Source of the DNA: Candidatus Woesearchaeota archaeon
GTDB lineage: Archaea; Nanobdellota; Nanobdellia; Woesearchaeales; GW2011-AR4
NCBI GenBank assembly: GCA_016181305.1
Contig: JACOZN010000010.1
Coordinates: forward strand, 1 to 64,000
Direction: 5' to 3'
Length of the DNA: 64,000 nucleotides
The notes below the pieces were generated by a model. It saw nothing but the letters and a program-made list of their open reading frames with translations. It did not search any database and was not told where the DNA came from. Each line of letters begins with the position of its first letter. Within the stretch, counting starts at the first letter, position 1. Positions 6,297 to 19,160 of the stretch are shown piece after piece. The position numbers were made by a program, and so were the translations under genes.

Positions 6297-9200
6297 ATGG
6301 AAAGCAAAGAAGATGAAGAGATAACTATAGATGCTAAGAAATCAAAGATTTCTGGCACTAAGCAAATCGGAGATTTGCGAGGTGATCAAAAATCTAAGAT
6401 TTTTGACATCTCCGAAAATTCTGATGAAGAATTTTCGATAGATTTCAGCAAAGTAAAGAGTTTCTTCAAAAGCAAAGGGGAAAAAAAGCCGGATGAGTCT
6501 TCAAAAGAGGGCAAAAAAGATGATGAAGAGATAACTATAGACTTCGGCAGGGTGAAGAACTTCTTCAAAAGCGAAAAAACAGAAGATGCCCATGCTCCGG
6601 CAAAGGAAAAAGATGATGACGAGCTGTCATTTGACTTTGGCAAAATAAAGAAATTTTTCAAATCTGAAGAAAAAGAGGCTGCAGGCGGCGATGACATACA
6701 GGTGAATTGGGGCAAGGTTGCAGATTTCTTCAAAAAATACGGCGTTATATTCATAGCGCTTATCCCGATAATCCTTTCAGTCTATATCAGGATGCAGGCG
6801 GGCTTGCTGCCAATGACAGACAGGTGGGCTGCAGACAGCGTGGTAAACTCCATAAGAGCGCAGATAAGGGCCTCGATTGACCAGCAGTACCCGAATCTGC
6901 CTGACTCAAACAAAAATGCGCTTGTTGACACAGAGCTTCAAAGGGCGATAAGCCAGAACAGCCAGCAGATTGAGCAGCGCATCAGGGAGACCTCAGCTTA
7001 CTTCAAGTCATTTTTTCAGGACGAGAACAACAGAAACTACATGCCGGATATCGACCCGTATTACTGGTTCAGGTACGCAAAAAATATCATTGAGCACGGA
7101 CATCCGGGCGACATACTGAAGGACAACAGGCCGTTTGACACCAGACAGTACGCCCCAAACGGGAGGTTTGTCTTCCCTGACATGTTCCACCCTTATTTCC
7201 TGGCTTATTCCTACAAGGCGCTGCATTTGCTTGTGCCGGACCTGACGCTTATGCGCTCGCTGTTTTACTACCCGATTTTTATCTCAGCATTATGCGTGCT
7301 GCTCGTATTCCTGATCACAAGAAAAATTGCAGGCAACATGGGGGGGCTTTTTGCAGGCGTCATGATGGCAGTCAATTCAGCTTTTCTCGGCAGGACTCTG
7401 TTCGGGCATGCCGACAGCGACGCATGGGTTGTATTTTTCCCTCTTTTGGTGACATGGCTGTTCATCGAGGCGATTGACGGCAAAAAAATAAGAGGGATTG
7501 CGCTTGCAGGATTTTTTACAGGCATGTTTACCTCGACGTGGAGCGGGTGGTGGTATGTTTTTGACTTCCTGATTGCCACTGCTGCAGCCGTTTTGGCCTA
7601 TCTGGCATTGGCTGATTTTTTTGCAGCCAAAAGCATAAAGCCTGCTTTATCCAACCCGGCCATAAGGCGAATGGCGCTTGCAGGAATAGTTTACTTCATT
7701 TCAACTGCCGCATTTGTAACTTTGTTTTCAGGATGGCATACATTCAGCAGCAGCTTTGCAGGCCCCTTCAGCTTTACCTCAATCAAGGCGCCTGTGATTT
7801 CACCGACTGCATTCTGGCCGAATGTGCTGACAACCGTTGCAGAGCTGAACGAAGGCTCGATAAACAACATAATAAACTCCATGGGGGGCATTTTCCTGTT
7901 TTTCATAAGCCTTCTGGGGCTTGTGCTTTCAATATCAAGAAGCGAGGGGATAAAAAAATCTGACTTTGTGTACTTTATCGGAGCTGCCGTTTTCTACGGG
8001 ATTTTATTTATCAGCTTCGGCAGCAGCCCTCCGATATACCAGTCGTTGAAGATATACACGCTGCTGGCATGGATAATGCTGCCTGTTTTAGCCAGAATAG
8101 CGATTTCAATTTACAAAAAAGACTCTTCCTATGATTTCCAGCTTCCCATACTATTGTCGCTTTGGATTGTGTCTACTATGTTCGCAAGCATCAAGGGCGT
8201 AAGGTTTACGCTGCTTTTGGCCCCTGCATTCAGTGTTGCTTTGGGCGTTGCCATCGGAAAAAGCTATACACACCTGTCCAGATGGCTGACAAAGGAATTC
8301 AAAATCCATAAAATAATAAGCAGCGGAATGCTGATTGCGGTGTTGCTGCTGGTTTTTGCCAACCCCATAAAAGGGGCAGTTGCAGCTGCAGGCTCTGACA
8401 TACCGATAGTCAATGACGCATGGTACAATGCATTGAGCACCATAAAGAACAACTCAGGCGAAGATGCCATAATCACGTCGTGGTGGGACTTCGGGCACCA
8501 CTTCAAGGCGCTTACAGGGAGAAGGGTTACTTTTGACGGCACTACCCAGACTGCCACTGCGGCGCATTGGGTTGGCAAGCTGCTGATGGTAAGCGATGAA
8601 AGAGAGGCTATTGGCATTCTGAGGATGCTCGACTGCGGAAGCGACAATGCATTCAACAAGCTGTTTGAAATCACCAATGACTCCCACAAGGTGCTTAAGA
8701 TACTAAACAAGGTTATACTTTTGGACAGGAATCAGGCACAGAAAGAGCTGAAAGCTCTCAAGCTGGATTCAAAGGATATTGAAAAGATACTTTCATTCAC
8801 GCATTGCAGCGAGCCAGAGGCGTACTTTATTGCATCCAACGACATGATAGGCAAAAGCGGGGTATGGGGGCATTTCGGCAGCTGGAACTTTGAAAGGGCT
8901 GACATCTGGCAGAATGCGAGAAAAATGCCGCAGGAGGAGGCTGTCAGCTATATGATTAGGAAGTTCAATCACACAAAAGAGAGGGCAGAGAATATTTATT
9001 TTGAAGTCCAGTCTATAGAAAGCGACAACGAGGCAAATGCATGGATTGCGCCATGGCCCAGCTATGCAGGATTAACCGACTGTGTAAGGAATGACAAAAG
9101 CACCAAAATGTATGTGTGCGGCAACGGGCTGCAGGTGAACTTAAGCAACTATGATGTTTTCGGAATCGGGCAGCAGGGAATTGTAAGGCCGAAGACGGCG

Positions 9201-9569
9201 GCGTTCACGTCAAAAGACGGGCTTTTCAGGAAAGAGTTTGAAGGCGCAACGCTTGACTTTGGAATAACCTTAGTGCCGAAAAGCGAGAATGAGATTACAG
9301 GCATCCTGTCAATGAAGGAACTGGTCGGCGGCATGTTCACGAGAATGTTTTACATGAAAGGGCACGGGCTTAAATATTTCAAAGTGATTGACCATCAGCT
9401 TGTATTTCCCGGCTCCCAGCTTGAAACAGATATTTATGTGTATAAAGTAGACTGGGAAGGCGGAAATGCCACAATAGTGCAGGATTACGCCGATACCTTA
9501 GAGAAGATCAGCAAAGAAGAGAGCAGCGAAGCCACAGAGCCAATAAACAGCGCTGCAGGCAATTCTTAA
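6297..9569 (+). CDS. aglB: STT3/AglB family oligosaccharyltransferase with an N-terminal acidic repeat extension
   Basis: Multiple TM helices, DPYYWFRYAKNIIEHG, GHADSDAW, WWDFGHHF (WWDxG catalytic motif); ~145-aa N-terminal repeat region before TM1. Confidence 0.92.
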   Translation: MESKEDEEITIDAKKSKISGTKQIGDLRGDQKSKIFDISENSDEEFSIDFSKVKSFFKSKGEKKPDESSKEGKKDDEEITIDFGRVKNFFKSEKTEDAHAPAKEKDDDELSFDFGKIKKFFKSEEKEAAGGDDIQVNWGKVADFFKKYGVIFIALIPIILSVYIRMQAGLLPMTDRWAADSVVNSIRAQIRASIDQQYPNLPDSNKNALVDTELQRAISQNSQQIEQRIRETSAYFKSFFQDENNRNYMPDIDPYYWFRYAKNIIEHGHPGDILKDNRPFDTRQYAPNGRFVFPDMFHPYFLAYSYKALHLLVPDLTLMRSLFYYPIFISALCVLLVFLITRKIAGNMGGLFAGVMMAVNSAFLGRTLFGHADSDAWVVFFPLLVTWLFIEAIDGKKIRGIALAGFFTGMFTSTWSGWWYVFDFLIATAAAVLAYLALADFFAAKSIKPALSNPAIRRMALAGIVYFISTAAFVTLFSGWHTFSSSFAGPFSFTSIKAPVISPTAFWPNVLTTVAELNEGSINNIINSMGGIFLFFISLLGLVLSISRSEGIKKSDFVYFIGAAVFYGILFISFGSSPPIYQSLKIYTLLAWIMLPVLARIAISIYKKDSSYDFQLPILLSLWIVSTMFASIKGVRFTLLLAPAFSVALGVAIGKSYTHLSRWLTKEFKIHKIISSGMLIAVLLLVFANPIKGAVAAAGSDIPIVNDAWYNALSTIKNNSGEDAIITSWWDFGHHFKALTGRRVTFDGTTQTATAAHWVGKLLMVSDEREAIGILRMLDCGSDNAFNKLFEITNDSHKVLKILNKVILLDRNQAQKELKALKLDSKDIEKILSFTHCSEPEAYFIASNDMIGKSGVWGHFGSWNFERADIWQNARKMPQEEAVSYMIRKFNHTKERAENIYFEVQSIESDNEANAWIAPWPSYAGLTDCVRNDKSTKMYVCGNGLQVNLSNYDVFGIGQQGIVRPKTAAFTSKDGLFRKEFEGATLDFGITLVPKSENEITGILSMKELVGGMFTRMFYMKGHGLKYFKVIDHQLVFPGSQLETDIYVYKVDWEGGNATIVQDYADTLEKISKEESSEATEPINSAAGNS
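6337..6437. repeat. Four tandem short hairpins inside the aglB 5' coding region
   Basis: AGAAATC-aaa-GATTTCT 6337-6353; GCAAATC-gga-GATTTGC 6362-6378; TCAAAAATC-taa-GATTTTTGA 6386-6406; CGAAAATTC-tgatgaa-GAATTTTCG 6413-6437. Confidence 0.85.
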
Positions 9570-10241
9570 ATGGAAAAAGGCAATATCTGGGCTGTGATTC
9601 CAGCCTATAACGAGGAAAAGAGCATTGCCGGCATAATCAGGAAGACAAGGCAGTATGCAGGCACAGTTGTAGTTGTCAACGACGGCAGCAAAGACAAGAC
9701 AAAAGATGCCGCTGAAAATGCAGGTGCAGTAGTGCTTACACATGTGATAAACTTAGGCAAAGGAGCTGCGCTGAAAACAGGCTGCGACTATGCTGTCAGG
9801 AAAGGCGCCAGGCGCATTGTCGCGCTTGATGCAGACGCGCAGCACAACCCTGAAGACATTCCGAGGTTTGCGGACAAATTAAAAAAATATGACATTGTAT
9901 TCAGCTACAGGAAGGCAAGCAGGAAAATGCCTTTTGTGCTGCGCTTCGGAAACTGGTTCATATCGAATGTTGTGAAGGCATTGTACGGCATAAGCCTCAA
10001 TGACACGCAATGCGGATTCAGGGCTTTTTCAGGAGAGGCTTACAAAAAAATAAGGTGGAACGCACCTGACTACTCGATGGAATCCGAGATGATAACAAGG
10101 GCGGGAAAGCAAAGGTTAAAATATGTGCAAATACCCATCGAGACAATATACTCTGACAAGTACAAAGGCACCACTGTCATAGACGGCATGAAAATTGTGC
10201 TGAACATGTTTTGGTGGAAACTTTTCAAAAACGGGAAATAG
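9570..10241 (+). CDS. GT2 family glycosyltransferase (dolichyl-phosphate sugar synthase-like)
   Basis: VIPAYNEEKSIAGII, VVVNDGSKDKT, LDADAQHNPEDI. Confidence 0.88.
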   Translation: MEKGNIWAVIPAYNEEKSIAGIIRKTRQYAGTVVVVNDGSKDKTKDAAENAGAVVLTHVINLGKGAALKTGCDYAVRKGARRIVALDADAQHNPEDIPRFADKLKKYDIVFSYRKASRKMPFVLRFGNWFISNVVKALYGISLNDTQCGFRAFSGEAYKKIRWNAPDYSMESEMITRAGKQRLKYVQIPIETIYSDKYKGTTVIDGMKIVLNMFWWKLFKNGK

Positions 10242-10247
10242 CGCAAA

Positions 10248-10586
10248 ATGGCGAAAATACTCGGAATCCAGATAGCAGGGATATTGTTTGGGCTGTTCAT
10301 GCTGTATTACTCTTTTCTGAATTACAAAAGAAAAGAGTTTAATGCAAAGGAGTTTGTGTTTTGGATTTTTTTATGGGCTGCGCTTGTTGTTATTGCGCTA
10401 TTCCCTTCTGTACTGGACCCTGTAATAAAGCCATTGGGCTTCTTCAGGGCGCTTGACTTCCTTGTGATGACCGGGTTCCTGTTTCTGACTCTGGCAATTT
10501 TCTATACATACACTGTTGCGAAGAAGAATAGCAAGCAGCTTGAGTCCATCGTAAGGGAGATTGCGATTAAGGGCAGGAAGAAATAA
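10248..10586 (+). CDS. DUF2304-like small membrane protein
   Basis: Small protein with three TM helices directly downstream of a GT2 gene; typical DUF2304 layout. Confidence 0.65.
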   Translation: MAKILGIQIAGILFGLFMLYYSFLNYKRKEFNAKEFVFWIFLWAALVVIALFPSVLDPVIKPLGFFRALDFLVMTGFLFLTLAIFYTYTVAKKNSKQLESIVREIAIKGRKK

Positions 10587-10637
10587 AAAGATTTTTTTGG
10601 TGTATAAGTTTAAATAGCCTCTTATCCTACCAATATT

Positions 10638-11777
10638 ATGGTATTTTTAATCAAATTCATTGACAGGCATGCAGGCAATTTGCTGTGCAGCTTTCTGGCA
10701 CTGTTTAATAAAAAGAAGTTAATTGAAAGTTCAAAGATAAATAAAATCTTAGTTGTCCAGCTTTGGGGAATTGGCGAGACAGTTCTGGTGCTGCCTGCGC
10801 TTGAAGCCCTGCGAAAGAATTTTCCAAATGCCGAGATTACCATTCTGGCAACCGCAAGAAACAAGGACGTTTTTTTTGGCAACAAAAGCATTGACAGAGT
10901 CTGCCTGATAAATCCAAATCCGTTTTCAGTTCTTAACTTTATTTTCAAAAATATAAAAAAGTACGACTTGGCTGTGGACATGGAGGAATACCTCAATATA
11001 TCGGCAATTATCTCTTTTTTTGCGGCAGAAAGGGTTGTAGGGTATTCCCACGGCTCAAGGGCAAATCTGTACACTGACAAAGTCAGGTACAACGACAAGC
11101 AGCATGCTGTGCAGACGTTTTTGGACTTGGCGAGAACTCTTAATATTGTTTATGACACAAGCAAACTGCACAAGCTAAATTTTTCTAAAAATGACAAAAC
11201 TTTCATTGATAAATTTTTAAAAAACAATAAAATTCAAAGCAATGACTTTGTTGTATGTGTTGCCCCGGGGGCTGCCGAGTCGGCAAAAGCAAGAATGTGG
11301 CCGTATGAAAGGTATGCAGAGCTTTGCGACGAGATAATAAGCAGGCACAGGGCGAAGGTAATTTTTATAGGGAATGCCGGCGAAATTAGTCTGGTGGGCA
11401 GCATACAGCAAAACATGGAGAACAAGGAAAAAACTATCAATGCCGCCGGAAAGGTTACATTAAACCAGTTATTCTGCCTCATAAGCAGGTGCAGCCTTTT
11501 CATAGGCAATGACGCCGGGCCAATGCATATTGCAGCAGCGCAAGGCGTGAAAACTATCGGGCTGTTCGGGCCAAATTTGCCTGTGAGGTTCGGGCCTTAC
11601 GGGAAGGGAAACATCGGGCTGTACAAGGGCTACAACTGCGAGTTCAGCCCGTGCATTAACGTGCACAAAGGGGAAGTGCCAGACTGCCTGTATCCCAGGA
11701 ATTCCAACGACTACCAGAAGTGCATGAAGAACATCAGCGTTGATGATGTGCTGAAGGAAGTGGAGAAAGTGATTTAA
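10638..11777 (+). CDS. GT9 family glycosyltransferase (ADP-heptose:LPS heptosyltransferase-like)
   Basis: KILVVQLWGIGETVLVLPALEALRKNFPNAEITIL; CSLFIGNDAGPMHIAAAQGVKTIGLFGP. Confidence 0.88.
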   Translation: MVFLIKFIDRHAGNLLCSFLALFNKKKLIESSKINKILVVQLWGIGETVLVLPALEALRKNFPNAEITILATARNKDVFFGNKSIDRVCLINPNPFSVLNFIFKNIKKYDLAVDMEEYLNISAIISFFAAERVVGYSHGSRANLYTDKVRYNDKQHAVQTFLDLARTLNIVYDTSKLHKLNFSKNDKTFIDKFLKNNKIQSNDFVVCVAPGAAESAKARMWPYERYAELCDEIISRHRAKVIFIGNAGEISLVGSIQQNMENKEKTINAAGKVTLNQLFCLISRCSLFIGNDAGPMHIAAAQGVKTIGLFGPNLPVRFGPYGKGNIGLYKGYNCEFSPCINVHKGEVPDCLYPRNSNDYQKCMKNISVDDVLKEVEKVI

Positions 11778-11877
11778 AATATATATAAAATACCATTAAT
11801 AAGTAGTTACAGAACGATAGATTTATAAATTCTAGTTTCTTTCATATTTTAAATGTGTGGGGTTTTTAGAAAGTAAA

Positions 11878-12519
11878 ATGGAAGTTCAACCAACCAGCAA
11901 GTACGCACTAAAAGCTAAACAATCGGCTGAAAGATTGGGATTGGGTTTTAGAGTATATTCTTATTCTAAAATACTGGAGGCGGTTGCTCCAGAAACAGAC
12001 CCTATCAGAAAGTGCTCTGAAGTAACAGGTACAGAGTTTGGGGAACAACTTAAGTTTGCCCTTGCATCTGATATAAAACTTGACGGAATAGAATATGGGC
12101 ATCCGGCAATTGGAGTTGTAAGCTATAATGACAGAATTGATTTCAGGAAGATGGCTGAAGCGCTGATTAAGAGAGGCATACACCCAAAACTTAAGACAAA
12201 TCAATTTTCCACTCGAAAAGCAGACCCAGCAAAACTGGGAATAGAACCAGGCTATATTGGAATTAATCAAAATGCAGAATATCCTGGAGTTAGTTTTGAC
12301 TTATCTGAGCGACCATATCGAGCGTATGCGCCAGTTCCATACATATTCGATCTTTCAATACAAAACCTGCCTAGAATATGTTTTCCAACAGGAAAGGGCA
12401 AAGCTGATGAATTAGTAGTTGTTTCTTCTAATGCTCCTTTAGAAGACAGATTAAGACTTTTTTTAGCTGGATTTATTGGGGAAGAAAAGTTTATTCTTGA
12501 TGAAATAAGGCAGAGATAG
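11878..12519 (+). CDS. Hypothetical protein
   Basis: Open frame of ~213-220 aa; upstream TTTATAAAT; no family recognised. Confidence 0.45.
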   Translation: MEVQPTSKYALKAKQSAERLGLGFRVYSYSKILEAVAPETDPIRKCSEVTGTEFGEQLKFALASDIKLDGIEYGHPAIGVVSYNDRIDFRKMAEALIKRGIHPKLKTNQFSTRKADPAKLGIEPGYIGINQNAEYPGVSFDLSERPYRAYAPVPYIFDLSIQNLPRICFPTGKGKADELVVVSSNAPLEDRLRLFLAGFIGEEKFILDEIRQR

Positions 12520-12550
12520 CTATACACATTGTTTAATTATTAAATCAGAA

Positions 12551-13303
12551 TTAACCACCGAAATGCATATATTCCCCATATGTAAAAAATCCAACCAACT
12601 GCTTCATTCTCGCCAATTTGGGAAACAGGTCTTTTTCGAGGCTGCTTACGCTCTCAAACAATTCAAATATTTCGGGCTTGAATATATAGATTCCGGCATT
12701 GACGATATTGGTTGAGTAATGCCTTGGCTTCTCCTCAAAATCAACAATCAGGTCCCCGTCAAGTATTGCTGTGCCGTAGCTGCTTGGCTTTTCCCTTGTC
12801 ATCAGGCCCATTGCTGCAAGCTTTTCCGAATCAGAGTGCTTTTTAATCATCTTGAGCATATCAAAATCGTTGTAAGTGTCGCCCGACATGACAACAAAGC
12901 TGCCGCTTATCTTTTCCTTTATGGACTTCAATGCATCCGCATTTCCTCTAGCCTGCCTTTCTATGATTTCTGCATTTATTTTTGCGTCTGAGATTTCGCC
13001 CAAAAGCAGGTTTGTATTTTTGGTGTGCTGCGTGATTATGTACAGGTTTTTTATGCCGTGCCTGTGAAAAAAATCAATCTGCTGCCTTATCAAAGACTTG
13101 CCTTTTACCACCTTTAGTGCAACTGGCTGATGCTCGCCCTTGAGCAGAAGGACTGCTACGCTTACAGACTGCTCCTGAAGCCCTTTTTTGAGGAAGTACT
13201 CAATTGCCTGGCTCCTGCTCCTTATCACAGAGCCATCCACCTTTGAGTCAACGAGCCTGAGCAGTGAGCTGTCAAGCGATATTGCTATTTTTGGCTTTGC
13301 CAT
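12551..13303 (-). CDS. RHH domain fused to a (degenerate) sugar nucleotidyltransferase-like domain; predicted regulator
   Basis: N-term KIAISLDSSLLRLVDSKVDGSVIRSRSQAIEYFLKKGL (ribbon-helix-helix); then NTP_transferase-like core (SGDTYNDFDM, GTAILDGDLIVDFEEKP, NAGIYIFKPEIFE) without GxGTR. Confidence 0.8.
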   Translation of the reverse strand: MAKPKIAISLDSSLLRLVDSKVDGSVIRSRSQAIEYFLKKGLQEQSVSVAVLLLKGEHQPVALKVVKGKSLIRQQIDFFHRHGIKNLYIITQHTKNTNLLLGEISDAKINAEIIERQARGNADALKSIKEKISGSFVVMSGDTYNDFDMLKMIKKHSDSEKLAAMGLMTREKPSSYGTAILDGDLIVDFEEKPRHYSTNIVNAGIYIFKPEIFELFESVSSLEKDLFPKLARMKQLVGFFTYGEYMHFGG

Positions 13304-13310
13304 GGTATTA

Positions 13311-13337
13311 GGTATGAAAAAGTAGTAGAAAGTATGA
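13311..13337. promoter_or_regulatory. Two direct half-sites (GGTATGAA, AGTATGA) spaced 20 bp
   Basis: GGTATGAA 13311-13318 and AGTATGA 13331-13337 lie downstream of the reverse-strand TATA-like GTTTAAATAG, near the predicted TSS of the RHH gene. Confidence 0.55.
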
Positions 13338-13411
13338 CTATTTAAACTTTTGTATTTTATTGACTAAAAATGCCTAAAAAATCGAAAGGTTTAAATATAA
13401 GTTTTAATTAA

Positions 13412-13430
13412 AGTATGAAATATTCATACT
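13412..13430. promoter_or_regulatory. Palindromic operator AGTATGAA-ATA-TTCATACT
   Basis: Perfect 8-bp inverted repeat with 3-nt centre, ~20 bp downstream of TTTAAATATAA and just upstream of gmhA. Confidence 0.65.
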
Positions 13431-13433
13431 AAG

Positions 13434-14012
13434 GTGTTGCTGATGCAGAATAAAATAAAAGCAATGATTGAGGAAAGCGCTGAAACAAAAAAAATGTGCG
13501 CAGAATTGGCGCCGCAAATAGAGAGGGCTGCAAAAATAGTGGTTAAAACATTAAAAAATAAAAAAAAAATCCTTTTGGCAGGCAACGGCGGCTCTGCAAC
13601 ACAAGCTAGTCACATAGCCGCAGAGTTTGTCGGGAGGTACAAGCTTGAAAGAAAAGGTTTGCCTGCAATTGCCTTCACAGCTGACTTGGCAGCGATAACT
13701 TCAATAGGCAATGACTATGGATTTAATGCCGTGTTTGAAAGGCAAATTGAAGCCTTGGGTAACAAGGGGGATGTGTTTATAGCTTTGTCCACGAGCGGAA
13801 ATTCTCAAAACATAATCAATGCTGTCGAGAAGGCAAAAAAAATTGGCATTAAAGTCATCGGGCTTCTTGGAAAGAATGGCGGAAAAATGAAAAATAAATC
13901 TGATGTTGAAATGATAGTTCCATCTGAAAACACTCCCAGAATTCAGGAAGCTCATCTCATGATTTTGCATATTATATGCGAATTGGCTGAAAAGGAGTTG
14001 TTTGGGAAATAA
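13434..14012 (+). CDS. gmhA: SIS-domain phosphoheptose isomerase (sedoheptulose-7-phosphate isomerase)
   Basis: LLAGNGGSATQASHIAAEFVGRYKLERKGLPAIAF, ALSTSGNSQNIINA, PRIQEAHLMILHIICE; GTG or ATG(13443) start. Confidence 0.9.
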   Translation: MLLMQNKIKAMIEESAETKKMCAELAPQIERAAKIVVKTLKNKKKILLAGNGGSATQASHIAAEFVGRYKLERKGLPAIAFTADLAAITSIGNDYGFNAVFERQIEALGNKGDVFIALSTSGNSQNIINAVEKAKKIGIKVIGLLGKNGGKMKNKSDVEMIVPSENTPRIQEAHLMILHIICELAEKELFGK

Positions 14013-14910
14013 AATGCTGGACTTCACAAAAATAAAGACAATCTCTATAAACCAGAGAAAGAATAAGGTTAAGCTAAGTGATTTAGTTAAGCCTGCAAAT
14101 TCCAAGATATTGATTGAGTCAAAAGAATTTGATGATTTGGTAAAAAAAATGATTTCTGCTTACAGGAACAAAAAGCAGATAATTCTGATGATGGGCGCAC
14201 ATGTCGTAAAAGTCGGCATGAGCCTTTTGATAATTGATTTGATGAAAAAAGGGATTATAAAGCATATTGCAATGAACGGCGCAGTCCCGATTCATGACTT
14301 TGAGCTTGCGCTCATAGGAGAAACATCGGAGTATGTTGAAAAGACAATCGAGGACGGCACATTCGGAATGACAGAGGAAACAGGAAGGACATTGAATGAA
14401 GCAATAAAAGAAGGCGCAAAAAACAGCTATGGCATGGGCTATGCAATCGGAAAGAAAATAAACGACTTGAACCTGCCAAATAAGGAGTACAGCATCCTGT
14501 ACAATGCCTACAAGCTTGGAGTTCCGGCAACCGTGCATGTTGCAATCGGCACAGACATAATACACCAGCACCCGAACTGCGACGGCGCTGCCATCGGAAA
14601 GACAAGCTACCACGACTTTAAGGTTTTTGCTGAAAGTGTGAGCAGGCTCGAAGGCGGTGTTATCATTAATGCAGGCTCGGCAGTCGTGCTGCCTGAGGTT
14701 TTTTTAAAGGCTCTTACAATCGCAAGAAACCTTGGATTTAAAGTCGAGAAAATTACGGCTGCAAATTTTGACATGATAAACCATTACCGCCCGAGGGAAA
14801 ATGTCGTCCAGAGGCCGACTTCGCTTGGAGGGGAAGGATTTGTAATAATTGAGAGGCATGAAAAAACCATTCCTACACTGCACAGGAAAATTGTTGAAAA
14901 TATCCGATAA
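14002..14910 (+). CDS. Deoxyhypusine synthase-like family protein embedded in the heptose cluster
   Basis: MNGAVPIHDFELALIGETSEYVEKTIEDGTFGMTEETG resembles the DHS fold family; start may be 14014. Confidence 0.55.
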   Translation: MGNKMLDFTKIKTISINQRKNKVKLSDLVKPANSKILIESKEFDDLVKKMISAYRNKKQIILMMGAHVVKVGMSLLIIDLMKKGIIKHIAMNGAVPIHDFELALIGETSEYVEKTIEDGTFGMTEETGRTLNEAIKEGAKNSYGMGYAIGKKINDLNLPNKEYSILYNAYKLGVPATVHVAIGTDIIHQHPNCDGAAIGKTSYHDFKVFAESVSRLEGGVIINAGSAVVLPEVFLKALTIARNLGFKVEKITAANFDMINHYRPRENVVQRPTSLGGEGFVIIERHEKTIPTLHRKIVENIR

Positions 14911-14962
14911 AATCGTAATAAACAAAGCTGATAAAAATAATTTGCTGACGAAATAAAAAAAT

Positions 14963-15034
14963 AAAAATCACGAGAGCGACCTTTAGATGCTTAGGAGAAG
15001 AAGGTAACCCGCTTGTGATTCCATTACAAACAAA
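14963..15034 (+). ncRNA. Conserved stem-loop element, copy 2, directly upstream of the hldA-like start codon
   Basis: AATCAC-GAG-AGCG-ACCTT-(17 nt)-AAGGT-AACC-CGCT-T-GTGATT then CATTACAAA; same geometry as copy 1; ATG follows at 15035. Confidence 0.6.
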
Positions 15035-16006
15035 ATGAAACAAAGGCTGCTGAAAATTTTGGAGAATTTCAAGAACAAGAAAATACTTGTGATAGGCGAC
15101 ATAATGCTCGACAAGTACCTCTGGGGGGACGTGTCAAGGATAAGCCCCGAGGCGCCTGTACAGGTTGTGAATGTATTGGGGGAAACTTACGAGGCAGGGG
15201 GGGCTGCAAACGTCGCAAGCAACATTTCAGCGCTTACAGGAAAGGCTTTTATGGCCGGAATTGCGGGAAATGATGATGCAAAGGACATTTTATTGGGGGA
15301 ATTAAGCAGGAAGGGCATTAACACAGATGGCATTTTTCTTGACAAGGGCAAGCCCACCACGCAAAAAATAAGGATAATCGGCAAAAGCCAGCAGCTTCTA
15401 AGGGTGGACTACGAGAAGAAAGAGCACGTGCACAAGGAAATTGAAGATTCAATAATAAAATTCCTGGAAAGGACTATAAAGGACGTGGACGTTGTTGTGA
15501 TATCCGATTATGCAAAAGGTGTTATAACCCCGGATGTCTGCAGCAAAGCGATACGGCAGGCCAAAAGCAGCGGCAAAGCCATAATTGTAGACCCAAAGCC
15601 GAAGCACAAAAACCTGTATGAAAATGTAACTTTGATTACTCCAAATAATGCCGAGGCAAGCGAGATGACGGGAATAGAAGACGGCGACGAATCTGTGGCT
15701 GAAATGGGGGAAAAATTGGTGAAAACCCTTAACACAAATGTCTTGATAACAAGAGGCGAGAAAGGAATGTCCCTGTTCGGTCTGGACGGGAAAACCGCCA
15801 GCATACCTGCAAAGGCAAAGGAAGTCTACAGCCTTATAGGAGCCGGAGACACTGTTGTTGCGGCAATAGCGCTTGCAATAGCCTCAGGAGCCAGTTTGGA
15901 GGAGGCAGCCACCATATCCAACATTGCGGCAGGCATCAAGGTAGGGAAGATTGGGACTGCTTCTGTCAGCATCGAAGAGATAAAAATGGAAATTGAGAGC
16001 GTATGA
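15035..16006 (+). CDS. hldA: PfkB-family heptose-7-phosphate kinase (RfaE1/HldA-like)
   Basis: VIGDIMLDKYLWGDVSRISPEAPVQVV, GGAANVASN, VISDYAKGVIT, GAGDTVVAA. Confidence 0.88.
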   Translation: MKQRLLKILENFKNKKILVIGDIMLDKYLWGDVSRISPEAPVQVVNVLGETYEAGGAANVASNISALTGKAFMAGIAGNDDAKDILLGELSRKGINTDGIFLDKGKPTTQKIRIIGKSQQLLRVDYEKKEHVHKEIEDSIIKFLERTIKDVDVVVISDYAKGVITPDVCSKAIRQAKSSGKAIIVDPKPKHKNLYENVTLITPNNAEASEMTGIEDGDESVAEMGEKLVKTLNTNVLITRGEKGMSLFGLDGKTASIPAKAKEVYSLIGAGDTVVAAIALAIASGASLEEAATISNIAAGIKVGKIGTASVSIEEIKMEIESV

Positions 16007-16533
16007 CATCGGCTGTTTTTGTTGACAGGGACGGCGTATTGGTTGAGGACAAGGGCTATGTCCACAAGCTAGAAGACTTCAGGATGATTCCAAATGCGGC
16101 TGAGGGGCTGAGGCTATTAGGAGGTTATAAGCTTTTTATCATAACAAACCAGGCCGGGCTTGGAAAAGGCATATTTACTATGGGAGATTTTAACAAGTTC
16201 AGCAGCCATCTGCTTAAGGAACTTGGAAAGCACAGCATTAAGATTGAAAAAATGTATTTTTGCCCCCACAAGCCCGAGGACAACTGCGAATGCAGGAAGC
16301 CAAAGACAAAGTTTTTGAAGGACGCCGAGATGGAATTTGGCATTAATTTGAAGAAGTCATTCGTCATAGGGGACAGGAAAAGCGATTTTGAGATGGGAAG
16401 AAGCATGGGATGCAGGACTATACACGTGCTTACCGGAGACGGAGTAAAGCACAAAAATGAGGTAACTCCCGATTATTTTGCAAAGGACTTGGTTGATGCC
16501 GCACAATGGATAATTGAAAATGACAAAAAATAA
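16003..16533 (+). CDS. gmhB: HAD-family heptose-1,7-bisphosphate 7-phosphatase
   Basis: FVDRDGVLVEDKGYVHKLEDF, ITNQAGLGKGIF, CPHKPEDNCECRKPK, VIGDRKSDFEMG. Confidence 0.9.
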   Translation: MTSAVFVDRDGVLVEDKGYVHKLEDFRMIPNAAEGLRLLGGYKLFIITNQAGLGKGIFTMGDFNKFSSHLLKELGKHSIKIEKMYFCPHKPEDNCECRKPKTKFLKDAEMEFGINLKKSFVIGDRKSDFEMGRSMGCRTIHVLTGDGVKHKNEVTPDYFAKDLVDAAQWIIENDKK

Positions 16534-17005
16534 GATAAAAACAATCAGCCAGCTGGCCCATATATCCCTGAAACTTAAAAGGCAGAATAAGAAAATTGTC
16601 ACAACTAATGGTGTTTTTGACATACTGCACCTGGGGCACGTAAAATGCCTTGAAGCTGCAAAAAGGCTTGGTGATGTCCTGATTGTCGGGGTTAATACTG
16701 ACGCTTCAGTCAAAAAAATCAAAGGCGACAAAAGGCCGGTTAACGGCGAGAAATCAAGAATTGGGGTGCTGGCAGGGCTTGAAAGCGTTGACTATGTTTT
16801 TCTTTTTGGCGAAAAGGACCCAAGAAAATGGCTGGGCAAAATAAAGCCAAATGTCCATGCAAAGGCTGGCGACTATAAGCTGAATGAAATCATTGAAAAA
16901 GATGTTGTTGAGAAAAACGGGGGGAAGGTTGCATTGATTCCAGTGCTTAAAGGGCACTCAACAACCAGCTTGATAAATAAAATTCTAAAAGCCGAAAATC
17001 AATAG
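16514..17005 (+). CDS. hldC: Heptose-1-phosphate adenylyltransferase (RfaE2/HldC-like)
   Basis: TNGVFDILHLGHVKCLEAAKRLGDVLIVGVNTDASVKKIKG; HAKAGDY; GHSTTSLINKI. Confidence 0.9.
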   Translation: MKMTKNKIKTISQLAHISLKLKRQNKKIVTTNGVFDILHLGHVKCLEAAKRLGDVLIVGVNTDASVKKIKGDKRPVNGEKSRIGVLAGLESVDYVFLFGEKDPRKWLGKIKPNVHAKAGDYKLNEIIEKDVVEKNGGKVALIPVLKGHSTTSLINKILKAENQ

Positions 17006-17036
17006 TTTTTTAAACATTTTGGGGTTTTTCTTGTGT

Positions 17037-17735
17037 ATGCCAAAGCTGTCAGTTATAGTCCCTGTTTATAACGAGGAAAGGACAATCGCAAGGGTTATTG
17101 AAGAGGCAAAAAATACAGAAATAAAAGGCATGGCAAAAGAGATTATTGCAGTTGATGACTTTTCAACAGACAACACAAGGGAAATGCTGAGAAGGGCAAA
17201 AGGCAAGCATGTAAAAATCCTCTTCCATAAAAAGAACATGGGAAAGGGCGCTGCGGTTAAAACAGGCATCAGCAACTCAACAGGCGACATTATACTTATC
17301 CAGGATGCTGACCTGGAGTACAGCCCAAAGGAATACGGCAGGCTGCTTGAGCCGATAATAAACGGAAATGCGGATGTTGTTTACGGCTCAAGGATAAATG
17401 CCATAAGGAAGAACCTCAAAAAAATGTACAAGCTCCACTATATCGGGAACGTGCTTTTGACGCTGCTGACTAATTTGCTTTACAATGCCAATATAACTGA
17501 CATGGAAACAGGATACAAGGTTTTCAGGAAGGAAGCTGTAAACGGCATAAATTTAAGGGCAAGAAGGTTTGACTTCGAGCCTGAGATAACAGCCAAGCTG
17601 CTCAAGAAAGGCTATAAGATACATGAAGTGCCGATAAACTTTTTCGGGAGAAAATTCAGCGAGGGCAAAAAGATAACATGGATTGACGGGCTCAAGGCAA
17701 TATACTACCTTTTCAAATACAGGTTTGCTGATTAA
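17037..17735 (+). CDS. GT2 family glycosyltransferase
   Basis: VIVPVYNEERTIARVIEEA, VDDFSTDNT, IQDADLEYSP, VYGSR; MPKLSV start preferred. Confidence 0.87.
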   Translation: MPKLSVIVPVYNEERTIARVIEEAKNTEIKGMAKEIIAVDDFSTDNTREMLRRAKGKHVKILFHKKNMGKGAAVKTGISNSTGDIILIQDADLEYSPKEYGRLLEPIINGNADVVYGSRINAIRKNLKKMYKLHYIGNVLLTLLTNLLYNANITDMETGYKVFRKEAVNGINLRARRFDFEPEITAKLLKKGYKIHEVPINFFGRKFSEGKKITWIDGLKAIYYLFKYRFAD

Positions 17736-17736
17736 A

Positions 17737-18459
17737 ATGAAGCCGGACATCACAATGTTTTTTCCAGCATATAACGAGGCGGAAAACATCCCAAAATTGG
17801 CCGAGTCTGCGGAAAAAGTCCTGAAGAAAGCTGCAAATAATTACGAGATTCTTGTTGTTGTATATGAAGGCTCGACAGACGGCACGATAGATGTGGTGAA
17901 AGGGCTGGCAAAAAGAAGCAAAAAAATAAGGCTGGTTGTGCAGCCAAGGGACAGGAAGGGAATAGGGTATGCAAATATTATGGGCTTTAAAAATGCGAGA
18001 TATCCGTACATATTTTATGCTGATGCCGACAACCAGTTTGACCTTGGCGAGTTCAGGAAATTTGTGCCTTACATAGGCAAGTACGACATTATAGCCGGGT
18101 ACAGGATAAACAGGCAGGATCCGCTGATGAGGATAGCAGTGTCAAGAATCTACAATGCCATTATGCGGCTTTTGTTTAACGTGAAAGAGCGCGACCTGGA
18201 TTGCGCGTTTCGCCTGGTGAGCAAAAGGGTTATTGACAGCATCAGCCTTAAATGCCGCACAGGGGTTGCAACAACAGAGCTTTTGGCAAAGGCAAGGGCA
18301 ATAGGCTTTAAGATAAAGGAAATCGGGGTGGGGCACTACCCGAGGAGATTCGGGCAGCCTGTGTTTGAAGGCAGGTTTCTGAATTTGCCGAAGCCAAGAG
18401 TCGTCATAGACCTGCTGAAGGAAATAAGAATGCTTTACAGGGATTTGGAGCAAAAATGA
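17737..18459 (+). CDS. GT2 family glycosyltransferase
   Basis: MFFPAYNEAENIPKLAESAEKVLKK, YADADNQFD; start at MKPDIT. Confidence 0.85.
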   Translation: MKPDITMFFPAYNEAENIPKLAESAEKVLKKAANNYEILVVVYEGSTDGTIDVVKGLAKRSKKIRLVVQPRDRKGIGYANIMGFKNARYPYIFYADADNQFDLGEFRKFVPYIGKYDIIAGYRINRQDPLMRIAVSRIYNAIMRLLFNVKERDLDCAFRLVSKRVIDSISLKCRTGVATTELLAKARAIGFKIKEIGVGHYPRRFGQPVFEGRFLNLPKPRVVIDLLKEIRMLYRDLEQK

Positions 18460-19160
18460 GGTACTCCATTGTGATACCTGCACATAACGAATCTGAAAAT
18501 CTGGTGAGGCTGCTGAAAAGCGCCTGTTCTGCACTGCAAAAAACAAATGAAAAATTTGAGATTATAGCTGTAAATGACAACAGCACTGACGACAGCCTTG
18601 AAATGCTGAAAAGCCTGAAAAGGCAGATAAAAGAGGTTGTAATTGTAAACAGGACAAAAAACCCAGGGGTCGGCTATGCAATAAGGGAAGGGCTTGGCAA
18701 TGCAAAAGGCGATGTGATTATAACAATGGACGGCGACTTGAGCCATGACCCTTCTGAAATTCCAAAATTTCTTGGGCTTCTTAACGGCTATGACATGGTT
18801 TGCGGCTCAAGATACATAAAAGGCGGAAAAGCTGACATGGCTTTGGGCAGGGTTGTGATAAGCGGCTTGTTCAACTTTGTTTTCAGGGTTCTTATAGGGC
18901 TTCCAATCAGGGATTTCACATCAGGATACAGGGCATACAAAAGGGAAGTTGTAAAAAAAATAAGGCTGAAAAGCAAGACATTCGGCATTTACATAGAAAT
19001 TCCCATAAAGGCGCACCTTGCAGGGTTCAGGCTTGCAGAGATTCCCATAAGCTATCATAAAAGGGAATTTGGCAAGTCAAACTTGAACTATTTCAGGCAG
19101 GGTCCTGAGTATTTCAAGGTTATTTTTGAGGCGCTGAGAATGAAGTTTTTTTGGAAGTGA
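18456..19160 (+). CDS. GT2 family glycosyltransferase (dolichyl-P-mannose synthase-like)
   Basis: IVIPAHNESENLVRLLKS, AVNDNSTDDS, ITMDGDLSHDPSEI. Confidence 0.87.
   Translation: MRYSIVIPAHNESENLVRLLKSACSALQKTNEKFEIIAVNDNSTDDSLEMLKSLKRQIKEVVIVNRTKNPGVGYAIREGLGNAKGDVIITMDGDLSHDPSEIPKFLGLLNGYDMVCGSRYIKGGKADMALGRVVISGLFNFVFRVLIGLPIRDFTSGYRAYKREVVKKIRLKSKTFGIYIEIPIKAHLAGFRLAEIPISYHKREFGKSNLNYFRQGPEYFKVIFEALRMKFFWK

Follow-up and report, generated by a model that had tools for sequence, protein, structure and literature searches.

Predicted repression of ADP-heptose synthesis in Woesearchaeota by a fusion of an RHH domain and a degenerate sugar nucleotidyltransferase

Gene content of the locus

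We analyzed a window of 64,000 nucleotides (contig JACOZN010000010.1 of assembly GCA_016181305.1, positions 1 to 64,000) from a 1.07-Mb assembly of 22 contigs, whose close relatives are Candidatus Woesearchaeota. The gene under study encodes a protein in which an RHH domain is followed by a nucleotidyltransferase (NTase) domain, and it belongs to a group of such proteins that is referred to here as branch A. Divergent from this gene lies an operon encoding GmhA, a GSU2086-family protein, HldA, a GmhB-like protein and HldC. The main genes are as follows:

10638-11777, plus strand: GT9 heptosyltransferase-like protein, the usual neighbor on the other side of the RHH-NTase gene
12551-13303, minus strand: gene of the predicted RHH-pseudo-nucleotidyltransferase (branch A), an open reading frame of 250 aa with an ATG start
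13443-14012, plus strand: GmhA, sedoheptulose-7-phosphate isomerase (TIGR00441, 218.9 bits, cutoff 209)
14002-14910, plus strand: GSU2086-family protein, deoxyhypusine-synthase-like (421 bits, cutoff 250)
15035-16006, plus strand: HldA-type heptose-7-phosphate kinase (TIGR02198, 367 bits, cutoff 345)
16003-16533, plus strand: GmhB-like heptose-bisphosphate phosphatase (GmhB families below their own cutoffs)
16514-17005, plus strand: HldC-type heptose-1-phosphate adenylyltransferase (TIGR02199, 186 bits, cutoff 181.5)

GmhA, HldA and HldC scored above NCBIfam cutoffs of the equivalog type for ADP-heptose synthesis, as did the GSU2086-family protein above its subfamily cutoff. The latter was regularly present in archaeal heptose operons, an SDR epimerase-like gene occupying its place in other genomes. 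A small cupin-like protein replaced GmhA as the first gene of the operon at several loci (L041-L045, L049, L050, L053-L055 and L221), and some branch-A operons had no HldC. Between the GT9 gene and the RHH-NTase gene of the window lies a 220-aa open reading frame (11857-12519) that had no Pfam match and no clustered relative at this position among the loci read. Genes for an archaeal STT3-type oligosaccharyltransferase and for GT2 and GT9 glycosyltransferases flank the heptose operon (6297-19160), which suggests that heptose may enter protein glycans.

Domain architecture of the protein

The original prediction had described the N-terminal ~45 aa of the protein as RHH-like and the remainder as a sugar-1-phosphate nucleotidyltransferase fold, and both assignments held in profile searches and structure prediction:

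13169-13303, minus strand: predicted DNA-binding domain of the RHH type, residues 1-45 (KIAIS at residues 5-9 as recognition strand; helices 12-20 and 30-44)
12554-13162, minus strand: nucleotidyltransferase-fold domain, residues 48-250 (Pfam, AlphaFold model and structural matches)

As a single sequence, the window protein matched Pfam RHH_1 below threshold (E=0.0086), and 22 of 56 relatives matched this family at E<=0.01. When a profile of 25 N-termini of the family was compared with PDB sequences, E. coli NikR was matched at E=5e-7, P. horikoshii NikR at 7.5e-5 and the Rv0298 antitoxin at 6e-4, with a weak match to CopG (0.19); the N-terminus was assigned to RHH because of this match of the family profile to NikR. 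An AlphaFold model of the single chain, based on a 56-sequence alignment, had a mean pLDDT of 93.6 and a pTM of 0.84, with the expected RHH helices (12-20 and 30-44) and a well-modeled NTase fold. Thus, model and profile agreed on the strand-helix-helix N-terminus that is a feature of RHH (MetJ/Arc/CopG) proteins. Residues 60-220 matched Pfam NTP_transferase (PF00483, the family of HddC and RmlA) at E=6e-24 over profile positions 22-193, the first 21 positions, which correspond to the signature, being unmatched. The PDB neighbors of the model were GDP-mannose pyrophosphorylases (VTC1, GMPPA/GMPPB) and HddC, which bears out the comparison with HddC/RmlA that the original prediction had proposed.

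Lost and retained parts of the active site

The following active-site features were located, and which of the canonical residues bind what was assigned according to the RmlA/HddC family:

13097-13150, minus strand: LLLKGEHQPVALKVVKGK at residues 52-69, in place of the signature loop (GxGTR...PK in intact sisters)
12878-12880, minus strand: Asp142 of the GD motif, kept in all 16 members of the branch-A alignment
12728-12733, minus strand: retained Glu191-Lys192 of the E-K-P sugar-phosphate motif (from alignments)
12563-12565, minus strand: His247, replacing the second Mg-binding Asp (invariant in the 16-member branch-A alignment)

The GxGTRLxPxT...PK signature loop of PF00483 enzymes was absent from the window protein, just as had been noticed for its GxGTR part: the loop reads LLLKGEHQPVALKVVKGK, at a position where intact sister proteins read, for example, ILAGGKGTRLRPITYEIPKALI. 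This loss was common to every branch-A member read, in which a K-G-x-x-Q-type replacement motif was conserved. Sequencing decay or a pseudogene could be ruled out, since the altered loop is common to the branch-A members read. A second alteration, which goes beyond the signature loss of the original prediction, was found in the C-terminal Mg-binding Asp motif, which is WxDxG in most intact sisters and GEYxH in branch A, with His247 in place of the Asp; the second Mg-binding Asp was present in most members of sister branch B.

On the other hand, residues G120, G141-D142, K192, G204 and Y206 of the pocket were kept in at least 90% of the 56 members, and branch A retained the base loop G-N-A (120-122), S-G-D (140-142), E-K (191-192), N202, G204 and Y206. 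Judged by these residues, the putative pocket is one whose triphosphate/metal side is gone and whose base and sugar-phosphate side remains. Because both signature motifs are gone throughout branch A and are intact in most of branch B, a loss that comparison of the branches documents, the window protein appears to have lost catalysis, in support of the pseudo-enzyme that had been proposed. Residual or different chemistry may persist in branch A, since the first Mg ligand and the E-K-P motif are retained.

Distribution of branch A

We sampled 288 genomes from the order and found branch A in 50 of them, with roughly 35-82% identity to the window protein. A search of contigs with the branch-A alignment gave 49 loci, all from Woesearchaeota/Nanoarchaeota-type archaea, and six distant matches to plain NTases elsewhere. 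RHH-NTase fusions also occurred in other orders of the class. Thus, comparison establishes the fusion as widespread in these archaea, and a lone oddity was ruled out; as for the original question of whether such an architecture belongs to a well-described family, none was found in the open-access literature.

Heptose genes were divergent from the branch-A gene, within six genes, in 36 of the 43 loci with enough sequence. HldA above the cutoff was found in 39 of the 50 branch-A genomes and in 9 of the 238 others (Fisher 1.5e-29, a kind of value that overstates independence, as the genomes are metagenome assemblies related to each other). At one locus (L077), a separate intact NTase was divergent from the branch-A gene.

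Predicted operators and promoters

The intergenic region between the regulator gene and the heptose operon contains two predicted operators and two promoter-like elements, the TATA and start positions being predicted by eye or simple consensus:

13312-13337, unstranded: predicted operator O2, two GTATGA half-sites (13312-13317 and 13332-13337) immediately downstream of the TATA box of the RHH-NTase gene
13339-13346, minus strand: TATA-like element TTTAAATA of the RHH-NTase gene (by eye)
13383-13399, plus strand: BRE/TATA-like element CGAAAGGTTTAAATATA of the heptose operon (by eye; spacing computed)
13412-13430, unstranded: predicted operator O1, the palindrome AGTATGAAatATTCATACT, where transcription of the heptose operon is predicted to begin

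Branch-A intergenic regions repeatedly carried GTATGA-N5-TCATAC, and short half-sites that are repeated or palindromic at the regulated promoter are a further feature of RHH (MetJ/Arc/CopG) proteins. In 41 branch-A upstream regions, 95 half-sites were observed and 5.1 were expected from mononucleotide shuffles. The median palindrome centre in such regions was 25 bp downstream of the TATA-like centre, which is the expected start site. The exact site occurred nowhere in the 1.07-Mb home genome except at the RHH-NTase/heptose locus, the next best match having 2 mismatches, and the palindrome would be expected 0.05 times in the window even with one mismatch allowed. A broad regulon in the home genome was ruled out, given the single exact site and a count of loose matches (<=3 mismatches) of 39 per strand vs 57 for a reversed-pattern control.

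Across the 288 genomes we found 62 exact sites, 38 of which were at a branch-A gene or a heptose operon, whereas the reversed-pattern control matched in only about a dozen genomes. A site at the regulator or the heptose operon occurred in 37 of the 50 branch-A genomes and in none of the 238 others; likewise, none of the nine genomes with HldA and no branch-A gene had a site near the heptose operon. The exact site was missing near gene and operon in 13 of the 50 branch-A genomes, some of which had one-mismatch forms (e.g., L026) and others of which may have none.

In five genomes, probably six, the regulator gene is not next to the heptose operon, and the site sits at the operon. The site was upstream of the heptose operon, with the regulator on another contig, in G018 (C61 vs C4), G097 (C10 vs C2), G121 (C113 vs C184) and G180 (C66 vs C81, where the assembly may have split a single locus); the regulator was 25 kb away in G067; and in G193 the site was at an HldA/GSU2086-like operon annotated only by weaker similarity. 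Thus, comparison of genomes documents an association of operator, gene and operon both in cis and in trans, and the association in trans is the strongest single argument that the RHH-NTase, and not mere adjacency, explains the site. Control of the divergent ADP-heptose operon, which had been put forward from the window alone, gains support from the conserved divergence, the palindrome at predicted starts and its uniqueness in the home genome, and further from the restriction of the site to branch-A genomes and its persistence at the operon when the regulator is elsewhere.

Sister branches

At least four RHH-NTase branches could be distinguished, each with different activated-sugar pathway neighbors. 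Branch B (MKERVTLTI...) usually preceded a phosphomannomutase/phosphoglucomutase gene and had a mostly intact signature, and its promoters carried the GTATGA/TCATAC half-site, often as direct repeats (TCATAC-N4-TCATAC). Most branch-C genes were read divergently from a gene of the UDP-glucose 6-dehydrogenase type, which was followed by an ordinary NTase gene, and branch C had its own half-site, TCYTAC. Branch D (three loci) was divergent from genes for a dTDP-4-dehydrorhamnose epimerase-like protein and a dTDP-glucose 4,6-dehydratase and adjoined a GDP-mannose 4,6-dehydratase gene, with sites GTAATAC/GTATTAC; at L188, L192 and L186, it lay between the dTDP-rhamnose-type and the GDP-mannose dehydratase genes, with an operator-like GTTACTTnAGTAATAC. 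Thus, GTATGA/TCATAC was common to branches A and B, whereas C and D differed, each half-site being enriched upstream of its own branch. Proteins with a degenerate site required at least three changes on a quick tree with many weak forks, on which the order of events is tentative.

Branch-B-like sites (GTATGAT-NNN-ATCATAC) were also observed just upstream of class II fructose-bisphosphatase-like (glpX) genes in G006, G227 and G270 and of a GAPDH-like gene in G130, and in G042 a glpX gene was divergent from the branch-B gene (L195; the loci of the sites are L225, L226, L229 and L230). Branch B may also control gluconeogenesis. The branch-C paralogue of the home genome (G000:C21:32684-33448; L002, L198) begins at the end of a tRNA-splicing-endonuclease-like gene, and neither a promoter nor an operator of its own could be recognized.

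Comparison with known systems

One-component regulators of the ROK, DeoR and RpiR/MurR families have a sensor derived from, or resembling, a sugar-metabolizing enzyme and lie beside the genes that they control. They share the enzyme-like sugar sensor and the position next to the target genes, both as predicted, with the RHH-NTase proteins, but they have HTH instead of RHH domains, and their sensors are of the kinase or isomerase type and not of the nucleotidyltransferase type. A one-component regulator with an enzyme-derived sensor is thus a known kind, and the domain combination and the lineage are new. In the open-access literature, we found no description joining RHH and a sugar nucleotidyltransferase, and nothing on point for pseudoenzyme nucleotidyltransferases or for heptose in DPANN archaea.

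E. coli NikR, which binds GTATGA-N16-TCATAC (PMC7055735), is the nearest RHH protein among PDB sequences and shares with branch A both the half-site and the order of an N-terminal RHH and a C-terminal sensor (a putative one in branch A). However, its sensor domain binds Ni, its half-sites are 16 bp apart (vs 5 in branch A) and it has no nucleotidyltransferase domain; the C-terminus of the window protein is an NTase fold in place of the Ni-binding domain. Although the half-site is identical, the predicted DNA contacts of branch A must differ from those of NikR and branch B, because its recognition strand is KIAIS and theirs is RVTxT. PutA, in which an RHH is fused to a metabolic enzyme of proline catabolism and represses its pathway autogenously (PMC5293562), is closest in idea to branch B, where the catalytic motifs are mostly kept. 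It is an active flavoprotein/dehydrogenase, whereas branch A has lost the catalytic motifs, is archaeal and adjoins a biosynthetic nucleotide-sugar pathway. GMPPA, a non-catalytic paralogue of GDP-mannose pyrophosphorylase, binds GDP-mannose and regulates (PMC11228364); it resembles the predicted branch-A sensor in being an inactive NTase fold that binds a nucleotide sugar for feedback and, with GMPPB, was among the top fold matches, but it is eukaryotic, lacks a DNA-binding domain and acts by protein contact on its enzyme paralogue. With HddC/RmlA, branch A shares the fold and the retained base and sugar-phosphate motifs, and differs in having lost the signature loop and the second Mg Asp and gained the RHH. 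Judged by these motifs, the window protein is neither a member of NikR nor a catalytically competent HddC.

Proposed mechanism and alternatives

We consider it quite likely that RHH-NTase proteins are a family of nucleotide-sugar-pathway repressors and that the window member is a pseudoenzyme sensor, acting as a one-component repressor for ADP-heptose synthesis. RHH dimers, two per palindrome, would bind the GTATGA half-sites of both operators in the 130 bp between the divergent genes. At O1, the bound protein would cover the point where transcription of the gmhA-GSU2086-hldA-gmhB-hldC operon starts, and at O2 that of the regulator gene itself, so that it would block initiation of the ADP-heptose pathway and of its own gene. 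The NTase domain would be non-catalytic, its NTP-phosphate loop and one Mg ligand being gone, and would serve as sensor through the base and sugar-phosphate side of its pocket. We infer DNA binding and ligand binding, and also repression, the last because the predicted sites lie at the predicted starts. The ligand would most likely be ADP-heptose, the end product of the pathway, as a feedback co-repressor, heptose-1-phosphate as an inducer being the alternative. ADP-heptose is preferred because the predicted pocket has lost the triphosphate side and kept the base and sugar sides, and because the non-catalytic NTase GMPPA senses GDP-mannose in this way.

The degenerate NTase domain might instead be a scaffold for dimers or tetramers without any ligand, regulation being constitutive or set by protein level. 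Many RHH repressors need just an oligomerization domain, the catalytic loop is lost, and negative autoregulation via O2 would suffice. However, conservation is among the highest at the G120-N121-A122 base loop and at the GD, E-K and N-A-G-x-Y motifs, none of which a scaffold would need, and a different nucleotide-sugar pathway is tied to each sister branch, so that a ligand-free domain appears unlikely. We regard as very unlikely that the protein is a still-active HddC-like NTase of the heptose pathway that also represses its genes, in the manner of the trifunctional PutA. HddC is among its structural matches, HldC is absent from some branch-A operons, and branch B, which mostly keeps the full signature, may be such a true enzyme-regulator; nevertheless, all branch-A members read lack both GxGTR...PK and the second Mg Asp, an HldC-type adenylyltransferase is already encoded in the home operon, and L077 carries an intact NTase besides its branch-A gene.

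Other alternatives concern the mode of action at the palindrome. An activator turned on by a pathway intermediate would make both genes respond together, and activators with this fold are conceivable, but the sites lie downstream of TATA-like boxes at predicted starts, where a bound protein would block the initiation complex; we give this reading little credence. That the palindrome belongs to another regulator, e.g., one of the NikR type, and has nothing to do with the RHH-NTase is suggested by the identical half-site of E. coli NikR with its 16-bp spacing. This seems extremely improbable, as sites near the heptose operon were confined to genomes with a branch-A gene (0/9 of the HldA-positive genomes lacking it), and the half-site recurs in direct repeats at the promoters of the branch B genes themselves, C and D having different ones.

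Implications

Beyond the repressor proposed for the window, we lean towards a broader history, in which a sugar NTase was fused once to an RHH domain in archaea, gave first an enzyme-regulator (B), and then, through duplication, pseudoenzyme sensors each specific to one pathway (ADP-heptose in A, UDP-glucuronate-type in C and dTDP-rhamnose/GDP-deoxymannose in D) and each with its own operator; with such a transcription-factor family, host-dependent archaea would regulate their surface sugars by sensing activated sugars directly. Taken together, branch B, apparently an active enzyme-regulator, and the pseudoenzyme regulators A, C and D would make up a natural series, of interest for the question of how transcription factors arise from metabolic enzymes. 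Regulation in DPANN archaea is poorly understood, and here a protein family, its predicted operators and its putative target pathways are given at once, which would allow testing in vitro without growing the organism. Our results also point to surface sugars being controlled pathway by pathway, a bacterial-type ADP-heptose route included, in archaea that are thought to live on other cells.
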